From NCBI GenBank assembly GCA_024195585.1, contig SWBL01000095.1:86944-150943 (forward strand): 64,000 nucleotides of DNA, in the 5' to 3' direction. The notes below the pieces were generated by a model, which was not told where the DNA came from, ran no database searches, and saw only the letters and a program-made list of their open reading frames with translations. Origin of the DNA: Aureobasidium sp. EXF-3400 (Eukaryota; Ascomycota; Dothideomycetes; Dothideales; Saccotheciaceae). Position numbers and translations under genes: made by a program. Positions 207 to 26,286 of this stretch are shown here, piece by piece (positions within the stretch are counted from its first letter, which is position 1; the number at the start of each line of letters is the position of its first letter).

Positions 207-3200
207 ATGTCACCTTCTGCTCCAACCGCCTTTGCGGCCAAGTACGATGGTGAAATCGAAGGCGTCAGGGCGCGCGAGTTCTACAAGCATGTCAAGATCC
301 AGGATTGCCTTCAGCCACTGTTTACTGACCCCGCACTTGCAGATACTATGAACCCTTTGACAACCTCATGAAAACGAGCAATGAGAACATCAACTCTGGT
401 TCACAAGGTCGCGCCGCCTCTTTCGACGATGCCCTCGCTGCTTATGCCCAGTTTATCTGCCTGCGACTGCGCATCAGTCGCTGTCTCGTTTCCTGCTTCG
501 ATCGCAACCACCAATACATCCTGGCCGAAGCCACTCCAACTCTCGATCTTAGGACTTCCAAGGCCGATGATCCCAACGACGACCTATGGATGGGCTCAGG
601 CATCCAAGAACGTGGCACACACCTGTGTGAGCGCACTCTTGAGCTGGCCGACGAGAAGGTAGACGATACCCACGATGGCATCTTTGTAGTGCCCAACATC
701 GCAGTAGACGACTGGTACAAGAGCCACAAGCTGCACGTCACTGTGCCTGATCAGACTTGTTTCTACGCTGGCACCGCCATCCGGAGTCCCTATGGCCCTG
801 TCATTGGCGTCATCTCCATTCTAGACACCAAGCCCAGAGACGGTTTCTCGGATTCAGACAAAAGTTTCCTCCAACACATGTCAGACACCATCATGTCTCA
901 TCTCGACATGGTCAGATCGAAAGAAGAACATCGCCGTACATCCCAGATGGTCGTTGGTTTGGGCTCCTTTGTAGAGGGCAAGGATCACGTTGATATGGAT
1001 ATGCATTCCAAAACCCTGCCCAAGAGCAGCCACGTCGAACATCAAGGTACCCCTCCTCCAACTCCTGGAGCTTCCACTTCCAGGCCGCCAGAACTGGCCC
1101 ATATCCAACAAGAGAATCCACCCATGGATCCAGGGAAACTTAACGACATGGACGATAATCTCAGCTTTGAAAATCTCCAAGCTCAAATGTTATCGACCGA
1201 CGTTAAATCTACTTTCCAACGTGCTGCTGGAATCATCAAAAATGCTATCGATGTTGAAGGTGTCGTGTTTCTCGATGCTTCTGTCGGAAGCTTCGGCGCT
1301 CTAGTCCAGTCGGTGCCTGCTGCCTCTGACGACGACGCTGCTTCTTACTTCACTCGCAATGCTGCCTCTAACAAGGAGTGTCATGTCTTGGGAAGCGCAG
1401 GCGAAACCGATCCCAATCTCTCTATTACCGAAGGATTCTTGCACTCTTTCTTGACTCGCTACGGCCAAGGGAGAATTTTCAACATCGACCCCAAAGAGAT
1501 TGAGCTGCACATGACGCAGCCCAGATCACCCGACGAGTCGGAGGACTTTGGCCAAAAGGTCGAGCCGGAAGAGGATCAGCATCCAGACGACGAGACGCGA
1601 GAACAAGTGCGTCAACAGAGACAAAAAGACCTCGCCGACCTGAAGCGCTTGTTTCCAACAGCTCGTTCTCTAGCATTTGTTCCCATGTGGGATGACCACA
1701 GAATGCGTTGGTTTTGTGGTGGCATCATTTGGTCTAACAGGGCGATACGTTTGCTGCACAAGGACTCTGAGTTGAGCTTTCTGCGAGCCTTCGGAATGGC
1801 AATCATGTCCGAGGTTGCCAAGCTTGACACCGCCATGGCAGATAAAACCAAATCTGATTTGCTCAACAGCATCAGCCACGAGCTTCGTAGCCCCTTGCAT
1901 GGTATCCTGGGCAGTATAGAATGTTTGGAGTCATCGGACCTTGATCCCATGCAACACGGTTTGGTTGAGACTGTCGAAACCTGTGGACGCACACTTCTGG
2001 ATACTATCAACCACCTGCTCGACTTCAGCAAGATTAACAACTTTACCCGTAACAAGTCTAAGCGTCAGAAGAATTCCGAGACAAGACAGGCCGACATGTT
2101 GAGTCTCGACTCAACCGTACACTTGCCTACAATCACCGAAGAAGCCCTGGAAACTGTCGTTGCAGGCTACACCTCCGCTGCAAGTTCTCGTCAAGAGTCA
2201 AACGCCAACCAGGCATCCAAGCATACCCACATGACCCCTGATCGGGACGTGAAGGTCATTGTTGACATCGAGGCTAAAGATCACGAAAACTGGCTGCTTT
2301 GTTCCGAAGGAGGAGCGTGGAAGCGTTTAGTCATGAACTTGGTAAGCATGCTAACATTTGGACGGAACGGAATCTAGATACTGACCTCATTCACAGACTG
2401 GCAATAGCTTGAAGTACACGAACGACGGTTTCATCTCCGTACATCTCGCTTCTCAGGAATTACCGAGAGATGGCGAAGGACTCAAGAGAAGCCGTGTCAC
2501 ATTGACCATCAGAGACACCGGCAGAGGTATGTCTAAGGAATACCTGCAGAATCATTTGTTCAGACCTTTTGCACAAGAGGACCCTCTCAACCCTGGAGCA
2601 GGACTCGGCCTTTCTATGGTGCGGCACATTGTCAGCAATCTTGGTGGTGAGATATACGTAGAATCCGAGTTGAACAAGGGCACCGAAATCCGCGTCGAGG
2701 TCATCATGATGAATCCAGTTTCGGGCCCAGAAGCGAATGACGAAGCCTTTGTCATGACTGAAGCAGCACAAAAGCTTCATGGCATCAAGACAGCATTTAT
2801 AGATCCTCCGGTTAATGGGGAATGTTCGGCTCAAAGATCACTTCGCAAAGCGCTCGACAAGCAATGCTGGGGTTGGTTCAAGATGGAGTTCAATACTGTC
2901 AGTGGAGTAGACAAAGTCGGAGATGCAGCAGTGGTGCTTATAACATGTCGCAAACTGCTGGACCTCAAAGAAGAGCTGGTCAAGCTCAACAGACCAGTCA
3001 TAGTCCTCTGCGAAAGCAATATACGACTTCGACAGGCGTACCTCGCGAGCGAAACACTTCGAAAGGCAGTCACGACCGAGTTCATTGCACAACCCTACGG
3101 ACCTCGCAAACTGGCACGCGCGTTTGTAACGTGTAAAGAGCTACAATCACCACAGCTGGAGGATATCGTCTTGTATCGAGATACGGAACTCACGACGCTG

Positions 3201-3737
3201 CCGAGCATGCCCGCCTCGGATGCCCGAGAACATGATGACAAGCAACCGTCACACTCGCACGAACTGACGACATCACGGGTCACACCCAGCCAGGGCAAAG
3301 CAGCAGCCGAAGAGACAAAGGGCTCGGCAGAACAGGCAGACGGACCCAGACCTCTACGCCTTCTCCTTGTCGACGACAACAAGATTAATCTCCAATTGCT
3401 GGTGCGCTACTGCAAATCGAAAAAACACGATTACGCGACAGCAGAAGATGGCGTGGAAGCTGTGGAGGCCTTTTGCTCGCATCAACAAAATGCAGCGACC
3501 AAGTTTGATTTCATCTGCATGGACATCTCGATGCCGAGGATGGATGGATTGGAAGCTACGAGGAGAATCCGTTCTTTTGAACAGAGCAATGGCATGGAAG
3601 CGAGCAAGGTCATTGCATTGACGGGATTGGCGAGTGCAGAAGCACAGCAGGAGGCATTTTCATCTGGAGTTGATCAGTTCATGACCAAGCCTGTGCGACT
3701 AAAAGAGTTGGGTGAGGTGTTGGCTGGCAGACGATGA
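207..3737 (+). CDS. Hybrid histidine kinase (GAF-HisKA-HATPase-REC)
   Basis: A cytosolic two-component phosphorelay sensor, predicted at 1139 aa from exons 207-286, 343-2341 and 2397-3737. Residues of about 30-190 resemble a GAF sensor domain. The HisKA H-box (SHELRSPLHG) puts the phospho-accepting His at about residue 539. The N-box (MNLTGNSLKYTND) spans the second intron. G1 (DTGRGMS), F (LFRPFAQED) and G2 (GAGLGLSMV) boxes follow. The C-terminal receiver domain has LLVDDN, the phosphorylatable Asp of CMDISMPRMDG (about D1069) and the conserved Lys of MTKPV. Intron 2 (2342-2396) is a normal GT-AG intron. Joining the first ATG exon in frame needs a GC donor (AA|GCATGT, 287-342), which gives REFYKYYEPFDNLMK. 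The kinase core is certain, the first exon less so. The input signal is unknown and I do not assign a fungal HK group. Confidence 0.88.
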
Positions 3738-4870
3738 TTTCATTCTGTTTTCTTCTCATTTCTTTGTTACGATGACATTTTGTGTTTATGCGAAAATAAG
3801 ATCATGTGGCATGATGGACGGCAGGGCAGAGGTTGAAAGATGTCACTCAGCGGGTATGGACAACGAAAAAACGGTCCAGTCATTTTCTCGTTATGGCAAT
3901 TCGACTTTTCGCATGCAAAGGTATAGCAAAAACGAAAGATACCCGAGGATACCCATTGATGGGGAAACGGTTTATGGGCTGGCTCAGGAGCTGTTGTTTA
4001 TTGAGGGTGTACGAACGGGTTGTGCAGCCCTATGATTGTAACTATTATGGATTTGTCCCAGCACTTTGGATAGAACAACAACGAAATCGAAATGAAGTTC
4101 AGGATCTAATATACTTTGGTGTATCGCAATGATGAAAGTTTTTGCGAGATATGAGCGAGATTTGTATGGATGCTGTCAATTTAGAAGATCGGGGCCATGG
4201 TAGAATAATTCAAGATGTTTGATGGGTGGGTTTGACAGCAATCGGTAAAAGGCGTTCTTTCATTTCTGGTTGAGTTGCGGGAGGGGCCGTCTTGTTGGTA
4301 ACTACCTGGCCAAAGAAGAAAGAGCACTCTCGGGAACGTTTGTTTGGGTTGGAAGTGGGAAAGAACAGGCTGATGAGGTTTGATGATTTTATTGGGAAGT
4401 TGCGACGACGGGAAATCAAAGTGGCTTGGCTCGGACTGTGGAAATTGCTTTGAAGGAGTGGGAACCAATGGGAGACGTCACTTTTTAGGTTCTGGTTTGA
4501 GTGTTTCAGTTTGGCATTTGCGCAGCAGTCGGTAGCAGGCCTGGTAAGAAGAGGTCTGGTGCCATTTTGTGGACTGAAGGCCGATGTTTTGATGGTCTGT
4601 GGATGCTTCGGCCTTTGTGTGTTGGATGTTGCTTGGTTGTTGCAAGTTGCAGGAGCTTGCTGACGTTTTGCACGGCTTTGCTTTCTTCCTCTCATCAGCT
4701 TCGATCTACCACCAAACACAACAAGACACAACAACGCCAATACACGAAAAACACTTTGGATGCTCGATGCCCGGAGCTTCGGTCGACAGCGCTTATACGA
4801 AACACAAACATGAGTCCAAGTCTACTCCTGAAATTCGTATAGACATCGCAGCAGCACTGGAAGAAGCACC
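3738..4870. other. Intergenic: kinase 3' UTR and TBC gene promoter/5' UTR
   Basis: The stretch holds the kinase 3' end and the leader of the next gene. The last 200 bases are rich in CA and AAC (ACAACAAGACACAACAACG), typical of a fungal 5' leader. Open frames on either strand have no recognisable family and are not called. Confidence 0.45.
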
Positions 4871-7282
4871 ATGAGCCGAACCATGGCTCCCACGGCTTCA
4901 ATCAATGCCGTCCTCGCCAACCAGCATTACCACGCCCAGCAGCAGCAGCGACAGGAGACGCCCGACTCGCCCGTCTCTCCTTCGCAGCCTACCACGCCGC
5001 AGTTTTCATGGCCGCGCAGAGTCCGCAGCCCTGAACCTCATCTCCCGCTGCGCAAGGCCTCGCCCGAGCGCCTGCGACAGAGGATGCCCAGCTTGCCCAC
5101 CACAAAGACCAGACAGAAGCCTGCCAACTTGTTCATCACCACTGATGCTGGTAAAGAGGCTTTGAAACCTGCGACTGCTGGCAGTGTCGCTCCGCCGCAC
5201 AGCTCGAGGGTCAATGTCAAGAGCAACAAGTGGTGGGAGAACACCGACGATGAGAAGAGTCCTGCCCGTCAACGCAACTTTTCAAATGTCGAGCCTCGTT
5301 CGCGTCCTCGTGAACTCTCCATCGCCGGCGCTACGCTGAAGCGACAGGGTAGTTGGCCTCTGGAAGACAATAGCCCAGTCTCAATGCCTGTACCTGAAAT
5401 GGACCGCAACGAAACGCGAACCAGCTATCGCTCGCAAATGACATCGACAAGTAGCCACATGGACTCGACGTCGGGTACAGCACGCAGTAGTATTGCAACC
5501 GCCGACAGCTCTGTTTCGGACTGTGTCAAGATTGACTATGTCGACGATGAGGATGACGCAGATGACAACATGTCTCGCTATGAAGATGATTTGTTGGATA
5601 TGTACATTGCTGGTTTCGGCACACCTGTCAACCTCAGTGTCGACTTGCGCGAGTCGATGCGGAAGTCGATGCGTTTGAGTATGGCCAACTCTCGTACAAA
5701 TAGTTTCTTGCATGCTCCCAAGAGCTCTGTCGATACGCTGGGTGTGCGTCCTGGCACGTCGCCGTCTGGGAGCGAAGTTGGAGGTGGCTCGCACCGACGC
5801 AGTCATTCTGCTAGCATGGTTGATCGTAAGAGTATCCTTGCAGATGCCAATCTTACTCCCTTCGACAGGAACAACAAACCTACCTTGTCGCACAGCAGAA
5901 CCTCGACTCAGATCTTGTCTGGCCGCGACTTGCCCTCCGAACCGCTCTCTGCACCGCCACCTACCGTCGAGCCTTCTCCCGTCCTGTCTCCCATCATTGG
6001 CTCACCCGTGAGCACCAGCATTCCTTTGCCTCCTTCGAAACCCGTTCCTCGCGATCGCTATGGCTTCAAGAAGACTTCTCTTCACATTGCTGTTGAAGAT
6101 TTTGACGCATGGGAGAAAGAGTACAACATCCATCTCGAAAGAAGACGGAATAAGTGGAATATCTTGATGAAGCAATTTGGCTACACGACTGAGAACCCCA
6201 CACGTTTCCCCACCAAATCCGAAAAGATCAAGAGATATGTGAGAAAGGGGATACCACCGGACTGGCGAGGCGCTGCTTGGTTTTGGTATGCTGGCGGTCC
6301 CAAGAAGTTGGCTGAAGACCCTGGGTTATATTGGAATTTGCTCAAGAAGGTCAACCAGGGCGAGCTGAGCGACAATGACCGTGAGCACATCGAACGCGAT
6401 CTCAATCGTACATTCCCAGACAACGACCGCTTCAAACCTGACAATCGACCCACAACCTCAGAGCAGAGCCGTGGTATTGGCGAAACTGAGAACGAGACTC
6501 CGATGATCAAGGCTCTGAGACGAGTGTTGCAAGCCTTTGCTGTTCACAACCCAAGTATAGGATACTGTCAGAGTCTGAACTTCATCGCCGGCCTCCTGCT
6601 CTTGTTCCTCAAGGAAGACGAAGAAAAGGCATTCATCCTACTGAACGTCGTGACCACTGAACATCTTCCTGGTACTCACGGTGTAGCATTAGAAGGAGCC
6701 AACATCGACATTGCAGTTCTCATGACCTCTATCAAGGAATCTCTTCCTGCCATCTGGGCAAAACTAGACGACAAGCCGGGCACACCAGGCGCTGGAGGCG
6801 TACCTCGATTACCCACTGTCAGTCTGGCAACAACAGCATGGTTCATGTCCCTCTTCGTCGGCACTCTCCCCATCGAATGCGTCCTCCGCGTGTGGGACTG
6901 TCTCTTCTTCGAAGGTAGCAAAACCCTCTTCCGCGTCGCCCTCGCCATCTTCAAATCCTCGGAACAAACCATCAAAGCCGTCTCTGACCCCATGGAAATT
7001 TTTCAACTTGTGCAATCCTTGCCTAGAGGAATGTTGGACGCCAACGCGCTCATGGAGACATGTTTCCGCAAACGAGGAGGCTTTGGAGGGTTGAGTCAGG
7101 ATGTTGTGGAGAAGAGGAGGGAGGAAGGAAGGGTTGCTACTAGGAATGGGAGGACGCTTACGGTTAGTGAGGGCAGCGGTAGAGGAAGATTAGGTGGGGG
7201 TGATGGAGATGCTGGGAGAAGGAGCTTTATGAGGGCGAAGAGTAAAACTCGGTTTTCGAGAAGGCAGACTAAGGGGTCGTAG
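4871..7282 (+). CDS. TBC-domain Rab GTPase-activating protein (Msb3/Gyp3-like)
   Basis: This accelerates GTP hydrolysis by Rab GTPases in vesicle transport. The single-exon product is 803 aa. Residues 1-390 are low-complexity, Ser/Pro-rich and probably disordered. A conserved block starts at about residue 395 (DRYGFKKTSLHIA). The TBC domain follows, from about 450 (KRYVRKGIPPDWRGAAW) to about 710. Both catalytic fingers are present: the arginine finger in ERDLNRTFPDND (R513) and the glutamine finger in GYCQSLNF (Q567). The YGFKK block and the RKGIP-x-WRG signature fit the Msb3/Msb4 (Gyp3/Gyp4) branch, whose yeast members act on Sec4 and Vps21-type Rabs. The subfamily is an inference. The C-terminal 60 residues are Gly/Arg-rich. 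An in-frame second ATG at 4883 is an alternative start. Confidence 0.88.
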   Translation: MSRTMAPTASINAVLANQHYHAQQQQRQETPDSPVSPSQPTTPQFSWPRRVRSPEPHLPLRKASPERLRQRMPSLPTTKTRQKPANLFITTDAGKEALKPATAGSVAPPHSSRVNVKSNKWWENTDDEKSPARQRNFSNVEPRSRPRELSIAGATLKRQGSWPLEDNSPVSMPVPEMDRNETRTSYRSQMTSTSSHMDSTSGTARSSIATADSSVSDCVKIDYVDDEDDADDNMSRYEDDLLDMYIAGFGTPVNLSVDLRESMRKSMRLSMANSRTNSFLHAPKSSVDTLGVRPGTSPSGSEVGGGSHRRSHSASMVDRKSILADANLTPFDRNNKPTLSHSRTSTQILSGRDLPSEPLSAPPPTVEPSPVLSPIIGSPVSTSIPLPPSKPVPRDRYGFKKTSLHIAVEDFDAWEKEYNIHLERRRNKWNILMKQFGYTTENPTRFPTKSEKIKRYVRKGIPPDWRGAAWFWYAGGPKKLAEDPGLYWNLLKKVNQGELSDNDREHIERDLNRTFPDNDRFKPDNRPTTSEQSRGIGETENETPMIKALRRVLQAFAVHNPSIGYCQSLNFIAGLLLLFLKEDEEKAFILLNVVTTEHLPGTHGVALEGANIDIAVLMTSIKESLPAIWAKLDDKPGTPGAGGVPRLPTVSLATTAWFMSLFVGTLPIECVLRVWDCLFFEGSKTLFRVALAIFKSSEQTIKAVSDPMEIFQLVQSLPRGMLDANALMETCFRKRGGFGGLSQDVVEKRREEGRVATRNGRTLTVSEGSGRGRLGGGDGDAGRRSFMRAKSKTRFSRRQTKGS

Positions 7283-18898: not shown

Positions 18899-19882
18899 CT
18901 ATGGACTGCTTGCAGGACGCCAGCGATTAGCCAGAGCAGCATTGTGGCCAACCTTGTTGTGGATGCCGACGAGTACGGTGCCCTTCTTGCCGACACTCAC
19001 ATCTCCAATCTTCTGCTTCACGTCCGACACCTCTTCGACATTACTTATTCCGACGGCGCCATAGCCCAATTCTGCGATGGTGACGTTTCCGATATCCTGG
19101 TTGGTTCGAGTCGCGACCGATGACTTTGCGACGTACTCGCTCACGGTCGCAAATTGACTGACCACCATACGGGCTCGAGAGATATCGCGGAGTTCTTCTT
19201 CGACTCTTTCTACGTCGTCGATGTCGCCAGTATCTTCCGACTGCTTTTTGACGATCTGGAGTCGTTCCTCCTCTGGTCGCAGACCCTCGATCACAGCTCT
19301 TTGAGCAGCCAGGAGTCTGGTAGCCTCTCTTTCTTGCGTCATCAGCTCGAAGATACGTTCTGTGGTGCGCGTGTTCTCGACCTGCCCTTGTCTACGAATC
19401 GTCAGCGTTTCAAGTCGACCAGAAGACGACTGGTCTACGTACAAGGCACAACAGTTCAAGGCCAACATCACCGTGTCCTTACAACTACCCAGTTGTACGG
19501 ATAGCTGAGCCATCTTAGTACTGTGTAAGACGACGTTAATGTTGTCGAGGAAAGACAGTTTGTCGCCGGACATTGAGTGTCTGGTCCATTGTTTCAAGGT
19601 AGACGCGAAGTTCTCGCAAACAGTCTTTAGCGTTTTCAATGCCTGAGATAGTCTGGATTCGTCCAACAATTTATGCCAAGTTGTTGTCTGTCCGCCACTA
19701 TCCAAGATCTTCTCGAGGTGACGAACGACCGACTCGGTATCGTTGAGCTCGGCTCTTATCTGACAGACTGCTGTGGGTGCGCTTTCGATCTTGTCGATCA
19801 AGTCGATAGTTGCGTGTATCGCGTGGGCAGCAGCGGCGACGATGCCAACCACACCAGCTACAATGCTGAACGGATCGGTCAT
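18899..19882 (-). CDS. HeLo-like protein with two C-terminal amyloid-type repeats
   Basis: A single-exon 327-aa protein. The N-terminus (MTDPFSIVAGVVGIVAAAAH) and the helical domain to about residue 150 resemble the HeLo-like N-terminal domains of fungal STAND and HELLP-type proteins. The Gly/Ala-rich hydrophobic first helix is the type thought to insert into membranes. A coiled, charged region follows (about 160-250). The tail carries two repeats: QDIGNVTIAELGYGAVGISN at 262-281 and QKIGDVSVGKKGTVLVGIHN at 290-309, separated by eight residues. The NLR encoded divergently 328 bp away has one copy of this motif at its extreme N-terminus. This matches the effector side of HET-s/NWD2-like amyloid signalling, so a programmed-cell-death executor is inferred. 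The repeats are seen directly; the function is not shown. Confidence 0.8.
   Translation of the reverse strand: MTDPFSIVAGVVGIVAAAAHAIHATIDLIDKIESAPTAVCQIRAELNDTESVVRHLEKILDSGGQTTTWHKLLDESRLSQALKTLKTVCENFASTLKQWTRHSMSGDKLSFLDNINVVLHSTKMAQLSVQLGSCKDTVMLALNCCALYVDQSSSGRLETLTIRRQGQVENTRTTERIFELMTQEREATRLLAAQRAVIEGLRPEEERLQIVKKQSEDTGDIDDVERVEEELRDISRARMVVSQFATVSEYVAKSSVATRTNQDIGNVTIAELGYGAVGISNVEEVSDVKQKIGDVSVGKKGTVLVGIHNKVGHNAALANRWRPASSP
18956..19015 (-). other. Amyloid-type repeat R2 of the HeLo-like protein
   Basis: It encodes residues 290-309, QKIGDVSVGKKGTVLVGIHN. It shares 10 of 20 residues with the NLR copy R0. An 18-residue tail follows. Confidence 0.75.
19040..19099 (-). other. Amyloid-type repeat R1 of the HeLo-like protein
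   Basis: It encodes residues 262-281, QDIGNVTIAELGYGAVGISN. It aligns without gaps to R2 and to the NLR copy R0, with Q1, I3, G4, V6, G17, I18 and N20 identical in all three. Confidence 0.75.
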
Positions 19883-20210
19883 CTGAACGATGAATGCGAT
19901 AGTTCGTGGGAAGCAGACGCTACACCAGATGCTCGAGCGTGTCGGATTGTTGGCTACACGAGGCTGAAGTTGGGGCGGTATAGCCGTAAGCGCTTGTGGC
20001 GTTCATGCAGATTGCTGATCCGTCGCATGTGAGGGGCCTGATCGGCCTCAAAAATACACTCATGCCTCCCAAACTACTTTGATCAGCGTCGCACATCCCA
20101 GTACACTGAATTGGCTAGCACTATTGGCGTCATCCTGCCAGTTGCCTTGCAACGCATTTCGAATGCTTGTCCATCCATCGTGCGTATAGTCTTTGTCAGT
20201 ACTGCCAACA
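19883..20210. promoter_or_regulatory. Shared divergent promoter of the HeLo-like / NLR pair
   Basis: The two start codons are 328 bp apart and point away from each other. The region should contain both promoters, so the partners can be expressed together. I see no obvious named operator or TATA pair. Confidence 0.55.
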
Positions 20211-23141
20211 ATGTCGGACCATCCTCGGCCCATAGAGCAATGGATCGGAGATGTGACTCTGGGCGACAATTCGACCGCAAATTTTGGCATCTTCAACCAT
20301 CAAGTTGCTCAAGAACAGCGAAGTGCACAGCAAGCCTTGTTCTTTCGAGAGATGTACAATCGACTGCATGAAATCTCAGGTGCATCCCCCGGCACTTGTT
20401 CTTGGATCCTCGAAAACCAAACTCTCAGGGATTGGCAGAATGCGCCATTCGGACTCCTTTGGCTCAAGGGCACGCCTGGTGTTGGCAAATCCACCATCAT
20501 GAAATACCTGTGGAATCACTTTTCTCTGTATACTAGCTCGGGAACTAGCTCGGAACTACGAATCACGGCATCTTTTTTCTGCCATGGCCGAGGAGTTGAT
20601 GTTCAGAAATCTTCATCTGGTGTTTATCGCTCCTTGCTGCATCAGATCGTCCAGCAAGTGCCCTCGTTATCGGAAGATCTTGAGGAGAAGTTCCAGAATC
20701 ATTGCAAACCACGAGGACCACATGGCTCTGCCTGGGATTGGACGGAGTCTGAGCTGAAGAGTCTCACACAGGACCATCTTCTTAGGTCTTGTTGTGATTC
20801 TGAACTGCTTATCCTTGTTGATGCTCTCGACGAGTGCGGAGAGGATAGCGGCCGGGAGCTCCTTGCTTTCTTCCGAGATCTCGTCACCGCTTCCGAAGCA
20901 CAGAATGGCCGTGGATTTAAGATATGCGTTTCATCCAGACATTATCCACTTGTCCGATCAGATGTGTTATACCAGATCATCGTGGATGGGAAGAACTTAG
21001 CAGATATCCGAACATACGTCGCTCGGAAGCTCGACTCTTACTGCAAAAGCGTTCAAAGATACGATGAATTGTTGTCTTCTATAGCTTCAAGAGCTGGAGA
21101 GAACTTCCAGTGGTGCGTTCTGGTGGTTGCAAGGGTTGTCCGATTCCTGGAAAGCAGGAAGCCTGTGGAACTTATATTGCAGGAAATCCAAGAAACACCT
21201 CAGGAACTATTTCAGTTGTATCGCCAGATTGTCCGGTCGTATTTAGACGATACGAGAGTCAATCTACGGGATAAAAAGCAGTTCTCTGATCTGTTCCAGT
21301 GGATGGCTCTTGCGAAACAGCCACTCACAGTCCCTCAGTTAAGATATGCTCTATGGGTCGATCATTCCGAACTATACGCCTTGCAACAGACACCGTACGT
21401 CGATCTGCATGAGGATGGTTCCCCTGGTCCAGATATTGAATACCTGTCTTGCGGACTCGTAAGAACGATCATGGCTAAAGGATCGGATTACTTCTTGGGG
21501 CCTCGCTATAGTCGTCCTGTGGTTGAGTTCATCCATCATTCAGTCCAGGAGTACTTTGTCAGCGGGCCGGGCATCCGAGAGCTCCGAGGTCCTGATCAAG
21601 CGACAACAGCCACACGCATGGCAGCACTCGAAATTGTAAGAACATGCGTCAAGTCTGTCCTTCTGTCTCAACCACAAGCAGAAGCTCATGCTCGACATCC
21701 GCTGCTCGCTTACGCTTTGGACTACATGTTCGACCATGCTCGAACAGCTGAAGAAGGACAGCCAGCGCAGGACGATCTTCTGAAGATACTAAACTTTCCG
21801 CAAGATAATATTGTAACGAAGATGGCAGAGTTTGATTGTTCTAGGTGGTGGGAGGTGTACAACTTGAATCCAAGCCTCTTGCACATTGCGGCATATTTCG
21901 ACATTCCCAATCTTGTCAGCTGCGTACTCGATCTGGCACCTGAAATGAGCATCAACGCTCGCAGTCCGATAGGAAGAACAGCACTACACGTTTCTGCAGC
22001 AAAGGGCAGTCGCAGCGTTATGGATAGACTTCTCGACATCAGTGAACCTTTCACATTGAAGTCGATGATACCTCGGCGGAGACGGGGATTGAGGGTTCTA
22101 GATTTGAACGTCCGCGACGATTTCATGAAACTTACACCAATGATGATAGCTGCTCGAGTCGGCCATGGCAGGATCGTGGAGCGACTTATTCAGACGCGAA
22201 GAGCAGACTTGAACGCAAAAGATCGTGATGGTGTCACGGCATTGCATTCGGCAATCAAGAATGGGCACATGGATACAGCCAAGGTCTTGTTGCGTAATGG
22301 AGCAAACACGCGGGCTAGAGACCGATATGGGGAAACTCCATTGTCACTTGCCTTAACGCGAGCGTTGGGAAGACTCGATGCATTCCCAAGTTCCATGGCC
22401 ATTTTCTGGTCTATTCTTCCTCAAGCCAGGCAAGACTTGTACTCGAGAAGATACTACAACGAAAGTCAGTGGCTATTGCCCATACCTCCAGGTCCTGGAC
22501 CTATTCCCAAACCATCGCCGTTGCAAGAGGGACTCTCAAGTGAAAGAGGCTACGAGTTCGCACAAGGTCTGCTTGATCGTGGTTTTGACCCTCACACCCC
22601 AGACGAATATGGTTGTGTCTGGTTCTTATATCTTAGCGGTAAAGCAAATTCTACGGTTCTGGATTTACTAAAAGCGCTTCCCGGAGCTAACATAAACTTC
22701 AAAGATAGAGATGGCCGAACACTTCTCGCGCGACTAGCGTCCTATCCGTATATTCCTAACTGGCTGTTTTATGATGTCCTCGAGATCCCTGAAGTGGATT
22801 TCCAGACGAGGGACAAGTACGGGAAGACTCTATTAATCATTGCAGCTGAAGAAGGTTCTTTTGAGGTGTTCAAATTCCTGCTGGCAGATTGCAGATCTGA
22901 TCCCCAAGCAGTAGACCGGAAAAAGTTGTGTGCGCTAGACTACGCGAGAAAACGGAGAGATGCTGCTCGGGAAAAACTCACTGTAGCAGAAGCTAAGAAG
23001 CTGCGTGAAGAAGGCTTCTACCGCGATCAGTTGAATGAAGCGTCCAGAATTGTCGAGTTACTGGATGAATACTCCTATCTTGGACGAAGGTCTATCCATT
23101 CGCGGCAACTTGCGGCAAGCTCTCGTGGGATTCAACCCTGA
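20211..23141 (+). CDS. NACHT-ankyrin NOD-like receptor with N-terminal amyloid-type motif
   Basis: A single-exon 976-aa STAND protein. Residues 10-29 (QWIGDVTLGDNSTANFGIFN) copy the repeat found twice in the adjacent HeLo-like protein. The NACHT NTPase follows: Walker A GTPGVGKS (87-94, Lys93) and Walker B LLILVDALDECGED (Asp204, Asp207, Glu208). A winged-helix-like region reads QWMALAKQPLTVPQLRYAL. The C-terminal third has ankyrin repeats (TALHVSAAKGS, LTPMMIAARVGHG, DGVTALHSAIKNGHMDTA, YGETPLSLAL, YGKTLLIIAAEEGSFEVF). The expected role is ligand sensing by the ankyrins, NACHT oligomerisation and templating of the partner's repeats. I chose ATG 20211; upstream in-frame codons lack an ATG. 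The ankyrins look diverged rather than near-identical copies. Confidence 0.9.
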   Translation: MSDHPRPIEQWIGDVTLGDNSTANFGIFNHQVAQEQRSAQQALFFREMYNRLHEISGASPGTCSWILENQTLRDWQNAPFGLLWLKGTPGVGKSTIMKYLWNHFSLYTSSGTSSELRITASFFCHGRGVDVQKSSSGVYRSLLHQIVQQVPSLSEDLEEKFQNHCKPRGPHGSAWDWTESELKSLTQDHLLRSCCDSELLILVDALDECGEDSGRELLAFFRDLVTASEAQNGRGFKICVSSRHYPLVRSDVLYQIIVDGKNLADIRTYVARKLDSYCKSVQRYDELLSSIASRAGENFQWCVLVVARVVRFLESRKPVELILQEIQETPQELFQLYRQIVRSYLDDTRVNLRDKKQFSDLFQWMALAKQPLTVPQLRYALWVDHSELYALQQTPYVDLHEDGSPGPDIEYLSCGLVRTIMAKGSDYFLGPRYSRPVVEFIHHSVQEYFVSGPGIRELRGPDQATTATRMAALEIVRTCVKSVLLSQPQAEAHARHPLLAYALDYMFDHARTAEEGQPAQDDLLKILNFPQDNIVTKMAEFDCSRWWEVYNLNPSLLHIAAYFDIPNLVSCVLDLAPEMSINARSPIGRTALHVSAAKGSRSVMDRLLDISEPFTLKSMIPRRRRGLRVLDLNVRDDFMKLTPMMIAARVGHGRIVERLIQTRRADLNAKDRDGVTALHSAIKNGHMDTAKVLLRNGANTRARDRYGETPLSLALTRALGRLDAFPSSMAIFWSILPQARQDLYSRRYYNESQWLLPIPPGPGPIPKPSPLQEGLSSERGYEFAQGLLDRGFDPHTPDEYGCVWFLYLSGKANSTVLDLLKALPGANINFKDRDGRTLLARLASYPYIPNWLFYDVLEIPEVDFQTRDKYGKTLLIIAAEEGSFEVFKFLLADCRSDPQAVDRKKLCALDYARKRRDAAREKLTVAEAKKLREEGFYRDQLNEASRIVELLDEYSYLGRRSIHSRQLAASSRGIQP
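20238..20297 (+). other. Amyloid-type motif R0 at the NLR N-terminus
   Basis: It encodes NLR residues 10-29. It aligns gaplessly over 20 positions with R1 and R2 of the neighbouring HeLo-like protein (7 of 20 identical in all three, 10 of 20 to R2). Only nine residues precede it, as expected for an exposed amyloid nucleator. Confidence 0.75.
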
Positions 23142-25235: not shown

Positions 25236-25610
25236 TTACAGACCAAGATGGTTAGGGTTACCTCCACTAGCAGGAGCACCACCACCACTTGAACTTCCTC
25301 CGGTAGCGCTCTTAGCACTATCTCCAAGTCCTATTTCTTGCCATCAGCTGCTGACTCTTTTCCACTGGAAACTCTTTGACATACCCTTGGTGGTGTCACC
25401 AACACCCTTGGTAGCAGAGTTGACGGTATCGCTAGCGCCCTTTCCAACGCCTTGGACGGTGTTGCCGACGGTATCGGTGAGGCCTTTGCCGGTCTTGCCT
25501 ACTGTGTCTGTGAGACCGCCGAGAGCACCTTTTTTCGCGTTGGATTAGCTGTTTGTGACAGAATGGGAGGGCTACCAGAGCAGGAGGTGGATACCTTTGT
25601 TGTCAGACAT
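25236..25610 (-). CDS. Small Gly/Thr-rich LEA-like protein (84 aa, three exons)
   Basis: Exons 25610-25595, 25528-25385 and 25330-25236 join in phase (introns with GTATCC and GTATGT donors) to an 84-aa protein starting MSDNKG|ALGGLTDTVGKTGKG. Most of it consists of 8- to 11-residue variations on GLTDTVGxT / GVGDTTKGLGDSAK, an amphipathic pattern like LEA-type or hydrophilin stress proteins. It ends in a Gly/Ser-rich tail (GGNPNHLGL). The first coding exon is only 16 nt. Similar small proteins are common and often abundant in filamentous ascomycetes, but no biochemical role is assigned here. The phase-perfect splicing, repeat periodicity and C-ending codons support a real gene. Confidence 0.72.
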
Positions 25611-26286
25611 GATTGCTTGGGTATAAGATAAAACAAGATTGAGGGAAATTGTGTAAAGTGGAAGGACAGAGCCTGGAAGAAAGAGTAGATGGTGGTATAT
25701 ATATATGCTAGTACTTGCACGAGAGAGATGAGGTGCAGGCAGGCAGGCAGGCAGGCAGGCAGGCTGAAATATGCCGGACACACGTCACTTCAGACAGGGA
25801 TGTTTGCTCCTCAATGATCTACGCGGCATGGCATACTCGCAGTGCATGTTCCTGGCAGGTACTACATCCAGTAATCTCCAGCCACACTTTACTTCCCATC
25901 GATCCAATCAATAGCCACGGCGGTGGCCGGAAACAAGTCCATGCTGCACGCAACAGACTCTAGACTTCTCGTCAATTGAACAGAGCACAGCTGGACCTCC
26001 GGTAGCTCGATGTCACGAACGTGTCACTTCGCGGCAGAGATACTGACGCCTTTGCTCGAAAACAAGGAAACAGATGAGGGGAAGGTTGGAGCTCTCCTCC
26101 CGCACGACGTCAATTCAGGGAAAGGTGGGGTATGGCATGTCAGGAACACGACGCTCTCGTCATTGTGCACAACAACCATCTGTAAGAATATCAATGTGCA
26201 TAGTATTATGTATATAGAAATAGCCAAAAATCAAACTACTTGTGAACTGTCAAGCCTCCCAGAGTATTGAAAATATGGCTGGCAAA
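25611..26286. other. Promoter of the LEA-like gene and phosphoesterase 3' UTR
   Basis: A TATATATATATA stretch at about 25697-25707 lies some 90 bp upstream of the LEA-like start and could serve as its TATA element. A CAGG tetranucleotide repeat lies just beyond it. Nothing else is recognised. Confidence 0.45.
25736..25764. repeat. CAGG microsatellite, about 7 copies
   Basis: A perfect tetranucleotide tract (CAGG on the plus strand) in the upstream region of the LEA-like gene. Its length is likely to vary between strains. Confidence 0.85.

Follow-up and report, generated by a model that had tools for sequence, protein, structure and literature searches.

Known two-gene amyloid-signalling systems of fungi

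In Podospora anserina, the effector HET-S carries two C-terminal repeats of an amyloid motif (HRAM1) in addition to a HeLo domain, and the NACHT NLR NWD2, which has WD repeats, carries one N-terminal copy; the genes het-s and nwd2 are described as divergently transcribed neighbours. The HELLF/FNT1 pair of the same species is reported to combine a HeLo-like domain and a doubled C-terminal HRAM with a neighbouring NLR, and HELLF, whose motif is HRAM5, was solved as a HET-s-like beta-solenoid (PMC7889193). The catalogue of such effectors published by 2015 (PMC4518210) lists 155 HeLo-related proteins in which the HRAM is doubled; an NLR lies adjacent in 98 of these cases, and only 38 of the proteins match PF11558, the canonical HET-s prion-forming domain (HRAM1). 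Q at position 1 of the motif (position 3 in the numbering of PMC4518210) is described as the signature of HRAM2, which is found in pairs of a HeLo effector and an adjacent NLR. Most HRAMs are reported to lie at positions 5-9 of the NLR.

Two other families of amyloid motifs have been described. In HELLP/PNT1, a HeLo-like effector is reported to be activated by its NLR through the PP motif, which is pseudo-palindromic about a central Q and single in the effector (PMC4518210), and this system includes a second effector of the lipase type. The sigma motif, as described, is built of repeated submotifs and spans about 40 residues; the effector has one copy, and in the NLR the motif usually lies at positions 50-99.

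The locus considered here lies on one contig (C95) of the 53.4-Mb, 717-contig assembly of Aureobasidium sp. EXF-3400; the window, that is, the whole stretch of 64,000 nucleotides that was analysed, corresponds to positions 86944-150943 of this contig. The window has genes of eukaryotic type, and their domains and motifs suggest an ascomycete. Among them is a divergent pair, very probably a fungal cell-death module in which two genes communicate by amyloid signalling as in HET-S/NWD2, through an HRAM motif that is probably HRAM2-like. The motif is assigned to the HRAM type because of the domains of the two proteins, its occurrence at three places, a second and diverged pair in the same genome, the in-register charges, the published core pattern and weak matches to HET-s-type structures. 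By analogy with the described systems, the window pair would form amyloid, cross-seed and cause cell death.

The gene pair in the window

The features of the pair are as follows.

18899-19882, minus strand: HeLo-like effector gene, a 327-codon ORF with PF17111 at residues 2-151 (E 6.3e-12)
19443-19882 and 18899-19391, minus strand: probable exons of the effector, 310 aa spliced and 327 aa unspliced
19392-19442, minus strand: probable in-frame intron of 51 nt, with GTACGT donor, CTGAC branch-type sequence and TAG acceptor
19040-19099, minus strand: R1 motif, found by motif search and DNA pattern
18956-19015, minus strand: R2 motif, found by motif search and DNA pattern
18902-18955, minus strand: tail of 18 residues behind R2; its Trp recurs in the paralogue on contig C7 (alignment)
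19883-20210, no strand: 328 bp between the two divergent start codons
20211-23141, plus strand: NACHT-ankyrin NLR of 976 aa (NPHP3_N E 2.1e-32, Ank_2 E 5.1e-29)
20238-20297, plus strand: R0 motif, NLR residues 10-29, found by motif search and DNA pattern
20391-20939, plus strand: NPHP3_N/NACHT-type NTPase, residues 61-243, with Walker A at 87-94 and Walker B at 200-209
22140-22358, plus strand: best-scoring of three Ank_2 stretches, NLR residues 644-716

The preliminary description had proposed a HeLo-like effector domain, which was borne out by PF17111 (45.8 bits against a cut-off of 27.2), the HeLo-like domain according to PMC9815663. Both ORFs lie where that description had placed them, and the gene models were amended in two respects: the NLR very probably starts at the ATG at 20211 (the codon at 20193 is TTG), and an intron was added to the effector. 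In the PF17111 genes on contigs C7, C565, C8 and C100, the open frame ends at one common codon, with a GT donor after the second base of that codon. Because of this interruption at the same codon, together with the GTACGT, CTGAC and TAG sequences of the window gene, the 51-nt intron is very probably removed from the effector transcript; this comparison took in five of the seven PF17111 places of the genome. On splicing, the repeats move from residues 262-281 (R1) and 290-309 (R2) to residues 245-264 and 273-292, respectively.

The receptor agrees with the description of fungal NACHT-ANK NLRs in having a NACHT-type NTPase, Walker A and B motifs and C-terminal ankyrin repeats. The Walker motifs are intact (GTPGVGKS at residue 87 and LILVDALDEC at residue 200), and the Pfam NACHT model itself scored below its cut-off on this protein (20.5 vs 26.7 bits). 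No relatives of the NLR were found in prokaryote genome contigs or in viral contigs, as expected of a fungal gene. The frames of both effector and NLR are uninterrupted from end to end.

A link to pigment biosynthesis, after the Pfam name PigL_N, was considered and rejected; nine of the ten other window ORFs scanned belong to general or housekeeping families and the tenth gave no match. About 2 kb past the gene pair, the window contains a 33-bp repeat in two copies (25449-25514) and a perfect GCAG tetranucleotide run of 7.5 copies (25735-25764).

The shared motif

The three motifs, R1 (QDIGNVTIAELGYGAVGISN), R2 (QKIGDVSVGKKGTVLVGIHN) and R0 (QWIGDVTLGDNSTANFGIFN), are 20 residues long each. 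It had been claimed that the minus-strand effector ends in two such repeats and that the NLR 328 bp away has a single gapless match to them at residues 10-29; the ORF, the positions and the spacing were reproduced, with R0 counted from the ATG at 20211. The identities reported for the motifs were also recomputed without change: seven of the 20 positions (Q1, I3, G4, V6, G17, I18 and N20) are identical in all three, and R2 and R0 agree at 10 of 20. The corresponding counts for R1/R2 and R1/R0 are 9 and 8. The R2/R0 match is the top gapless 20-mer match of the whole effector against the whole NLR. The three-way gapless BLOSUM62 score is 117. Shuffling the last 100 residues of the effector and the first 60 of the NLR 2000 times, with composition preserved, gave 73 at most; when the whole effector was shuffled, none of 300 shuffles reached 117 and the maximum was 66. 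Taken by itself, the internal R1/R2 repeat is less secure than the three-way match, because its observed score of 41 was reached by one of 300 whole-length shuffles.

That the likeness is due to chance or composition, or that the motif is of the PP or sigma family, is barely credible. The motif is short, and two other HeLo-like/NLR pairs of the genome (on C8 and C100) have a different, N/Q-containing stretch in common between effector and NLR, which lends this explanation what weight it has; yet composition-keeping shuffles never reach the three-way score of the window pair or that of the second pair on C7. As for the PP motif, pseudo-palindromic and single as described, the window motif has its Q at position 1 and none in the centre, and the effector has two copies. 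The sigma motif, described as about twice as long and usually further in, was likewise rejected, since the window motif has 20 residues, is doubled in the effector and begins at NLR position 10.

The motif was also sought as a DNA pattern (Q-x-I-G-x-V-x-hydrophobic-G/A), which occurs at 21 places in the genome, compared with 10 for the backward control pattern. The pattern was derived from motifs that include the three window ones, which therefore match by construction. The C95 and C7 pairs account for five of the 21 matches, each with G at position 17; among the remaining 16, G17 occurs in two, neither of which resembles a member. The R0 motif of the C7 pair, with E at position 4, was missed by the pattern.

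Related pairs in the genome

PF17111 was found at seven places of the genome, five of them over the cut-off. A divergent NLR stands beside five of the seven, namely in the window and at the following four places.

C7, region C7:84500-92500: effector 2027-3042, minus strand, and NLR from 3297, plus strand; divergent pair
C565, region C565:2500-12000: effector 4425-5384, plus strand, and NLR 3983-2197, minus strand; divergent pair, more distant
C8, region coordinates: effector 1757-2876, minus strand, and NLR from 3115, plus strand; divergent HeLo-like/NLR pair
C100, region coordinates: effector 2050-3206, minus strand, and NLR from 3421, plus strand; divergent HeLo-like/NLR pair

At the two other places, on C51 and C210, none of the ORFs listed nearby was recognised as an NLR. 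On C210 (region C210:7500-16500, 4544-5612, plus strand), a weak PF17111 match adjoins an ORF with a GMTGSGKS-type P-loop, and the two are perhaps one spliced HeLo-like/GTPase gene.

For these comparisons, the HeLo-like genes of the window, C7, C565, C8 and C100 and the C565 NLR were taken as products spliced across the inferred introns. The C7 NLR has one in-frame TAA in its ankyrin region, at about 5052-5054 of the region, and may be truncated; its part before the stop was used. The C7 pair is 48-50% identical to the window pair in the effector and 47% in the NLR, and all three places carry the motif (R1 QEIGKVDIAESGYAAVGMSN, R2 QRIGDVKVGNKATGFIGMHN, R0 QTIENVVIGDNSSAYIGSFS), with a three-way score of 89 that none of 1000 shuffles reached. 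A gapped comparison of the C7 effector with its NLR gave only a moderate score, which was reached by 27 of 1000 shuffles. In the C565 pair, the HeLo-like gene has two HRAM-type repeats at its end, and the NLR has a putative R0 with the same core pattern in a short first exon, followed by an inferred 56-nt intron; with 11 of 1000 shuffles reaching it, the three-way score (51) is weaker than those of the C95 and C7 pairs.

On comparing the window pair with the C7 pair, it was found that R1 (70% identical) and R2 (60%) are the best-conserved segments of the effector, the other segments being 38-50% identical. At codon positions 1, 2 and 3, the identities are 95, 85 and 30% for R1 and 90, 80 and 60% for R2. 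R0 is 50% identical, which is not above its surroundings at 46-58% (residues 30-60, 58%; NACHT, 54%).

The in-frame stop of the C7 receptor would suit an explanation in which the motif is of the HRAM type by descent and cell-death signalling has since been lost, either through an effector inactive like the HET-s allele or through a decaying receptor. We consider this highly improbable, as the window effector and NLR are open over their full length, the Walker motifs are preserved and the protein sequence of the motif has been kept while third codon positions differ.

Within the reading of the window pair as a signalling module, the two related pairs may also be considered together. The C-terminal half of the C7 effector has a local score of 48 against the N-terminus of the C95 NLR and of 34 against that of its own NLR. 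Because of this better score with the C95 receptor and the in-frame stop in the C7 receptor, it is conceivable that the C95 and C7 pairs form one network, in which one receptor would drive the two HeLo-like effectors of both contigs by way of a motif variant (Q1, G4 in most copies, I/M at 18, N20 and no charge at 13) that would be an HRAM subclass of its own with a Q ladder at position 1, a suggestion that we regard as rather doubtful.

The effector and NLR of the C8 and C100 pairs share an N/Q-containing stretch unlike the window motif, which we presume may be of the sigma type. In local comparisons, the score of the effector with its own NLR was reached by 32 of 1000 shuffles for C8 and by 55 for C100, and for the C100 effector the C8 NLR is the better partner (score 44, against 35 for its own NLR). 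Visual inspection of the ORF ends near the eight HeLo (PF14479) matches of the genome revealed no doubled motif, and no window-type motif was seen in the N-termini of the ten NLR-related genome places, out of 35, that were read by eye. Genes with HeLo (PF14479) occur in clearly similar couples across contigs (C72/C27, C115/C228 and C309/C89), a possible sign of partial duplication of the genome or of a hybrid origin.

Comparison with the HRAM class and with described pairs

HRAM effectors have an N-terminal HeLo, HeLo-like or sesA domain, which is PF17111 in the window effector, and two C-terminal repeats of about 21 residues with a linker of usually 6-18; the window effector has two repeats of 20 residues with an 8-residue linker that is not G-rich. 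The adjacent NLR has one N-terminal copy, R0, at residue 10. The hydrophobic core residues at positions 3, 6, 8 and 16 and the G17 of HRAMs are present in all three window motifs. Position 14 is G in R1, V in R2 and A in R0, so that R1 is without the expected hydrophobic residue (positions 3, 6, 8, 14, 16 and 17 correspond to 5, 8, 10, 16, 18 and 19 in PMC4518210). An R or K at position 13 is absent from the three window motifs (Y, T and T), as is a large polar residue at 18 (I in all three), and of the polar preferences only Q1 fits; PMC4518210 describes the basic residue at 13 and the large polar ones at 1 and 18 as preferences and not as strict requirements. All six motifs in the C95 and C7 pairs have Q at position 1, and by this residue alone the motif is tentatively classed as HRAM2-like and the pair likened to HRAM2 NLR/HeLo pairs. 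PF11558 did not match the window sequence; its profile gave no match over the whole genome, but control genomes gave none either, so that this genome-wide negative says nothing on absence.

The charges of R1 and R2 are complementary in register. Over the C95, C7 and C565 pairs, six in-register positions have opposite charges and none like charges (D2/K2 and E10/K10 in C95; E2/R2, K5/D5 and D7/K7 in C7; E4/R4 in C565). When the outward R2 positions were shuffled 20000 times, 35 shuffles equalled this pattern, a count to be read with the relatedness of C95 and C7 in mind, as the three pairs are not independent samples. When the register was shifted by one or two positions, only one or two opposite pairs remained. 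An anti-correlation of R1 and R2 charges was reported over 155 pairs and explained by in-register stacking (PMC4518210).

The preliminary description had likened the layout to both HET-s/NWD2 and HELLP/PNT1. The first parallel holds in the two effector repeats, the single NLR copy and the adjacent genes, and it extends to the divergent transcription, the core pattern and the G of the motif. Unlike HET-S, the window effector is HeLo-like and the window sequence is without a PF11558 match; the motif has Q1 and I18 where that of HET-S has N at both positions and a positive charge at 13, and the NLR ends in ankyrin repeats where NWD2 has WD repeats. The second parallel is confined to the use of an amyloid motif by an NLR to activate a HeLo-like effector; it fails on the motif, PP being single in the effector, and on the second, lipase-type effector of that system. 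The fitting parallels are HET-S/NWD2 and HELLF/FNT1. The latter shares with the window pair the HeLo-like domain and the doubled C-terminal motif beside an NLR, and differs in its HRAM5 motif, the window motif being without the core Q and having I-G-D/N-V after position 1.

Structural comparisons

A profile of the three effector C-termini was compared with the PDB, and the sole match was 6eka from Podospora anserina, which we take to be HELLF, with both repeats in register at a weak E of 0.59; the reversed control profile matched an unrelated chain at E 1.4. The single-repeat profile matched six PDB chains and the window effector C-terminus alone matched two, all of them unrelated. With one of three forward searches positive, the link to 6eka is suggestive only. 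The full effector gave ten PDB matches at E 0.61 or worse, with HET-s among none of them.

A model of the C-terminus, at low confidence (pLDDT 51), has two equal three-strand rungs with the strand sets 28 residues apart. In a Foldseek search with this model, the best three of four matches were HET-s(218-289), although weak (E 3-6, TM-scores of about 0.2). For the full effector, AlphaFold2 without alignment gave a mean pLDDT of 44.8, and the resulting Foldseek list is not meaningful for the HeLo-like fold.

As the evidence on the window motif comes from sequence and the structural model is of low confidence, the motif might instead be a homotypic interaction element that serves for docking, like a conventional adaptor or scaffold of the beta type, with no spread of an amyloid template. 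This is improbable, as the doubling, the core and G17 pattern and the opposite in-register charges match those of the HRAMs described as beta-solenoids in PMC4518210. The earlier proposal of an amyloid-signalling system is thus upheld in kind, by the second pair, the charge complementarity and the weak HET-s-type matches, with amyloid and cell death as its predicted outcome.

Proposed mechanism and significance

A mechanism can be modelled on NWD2/HET-S as described in PMC5485727 and PMC4518210. The ankyrin end of the NLR would sense a ligand, upon which the NACHT domain would oligomerise and cluster the R0 copies. The clustered R0 would nucleate a beta-solenoid and serve as the template that converts R1-R2 of the effector to the same fold, with two rungs per monomer. 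The HeLo-like domain, which has a hydrophobic segment at its N-terminus, would then attack the membrane and kill the cell. Ligand sensing, oligomerisation, templating and membrane attack are thus all predicted from the described systems.

NACHT-ANK receptors with prion-like N-termini have been described before (PMC4986451, PMC3321046), and the ankyrin end of the receptor is therefore not new. With this locus, the described systems gain a well-supported amyloid-signalling pair whose receptor has ankyrin repeats, along with a paralogous pair and a weaker third one, all within one genome. Their sequences are offered for probing how much divergence the HET-s fold tolerates, and for asking whether related motifs in one cell cross-seed or stay insulated from each other.
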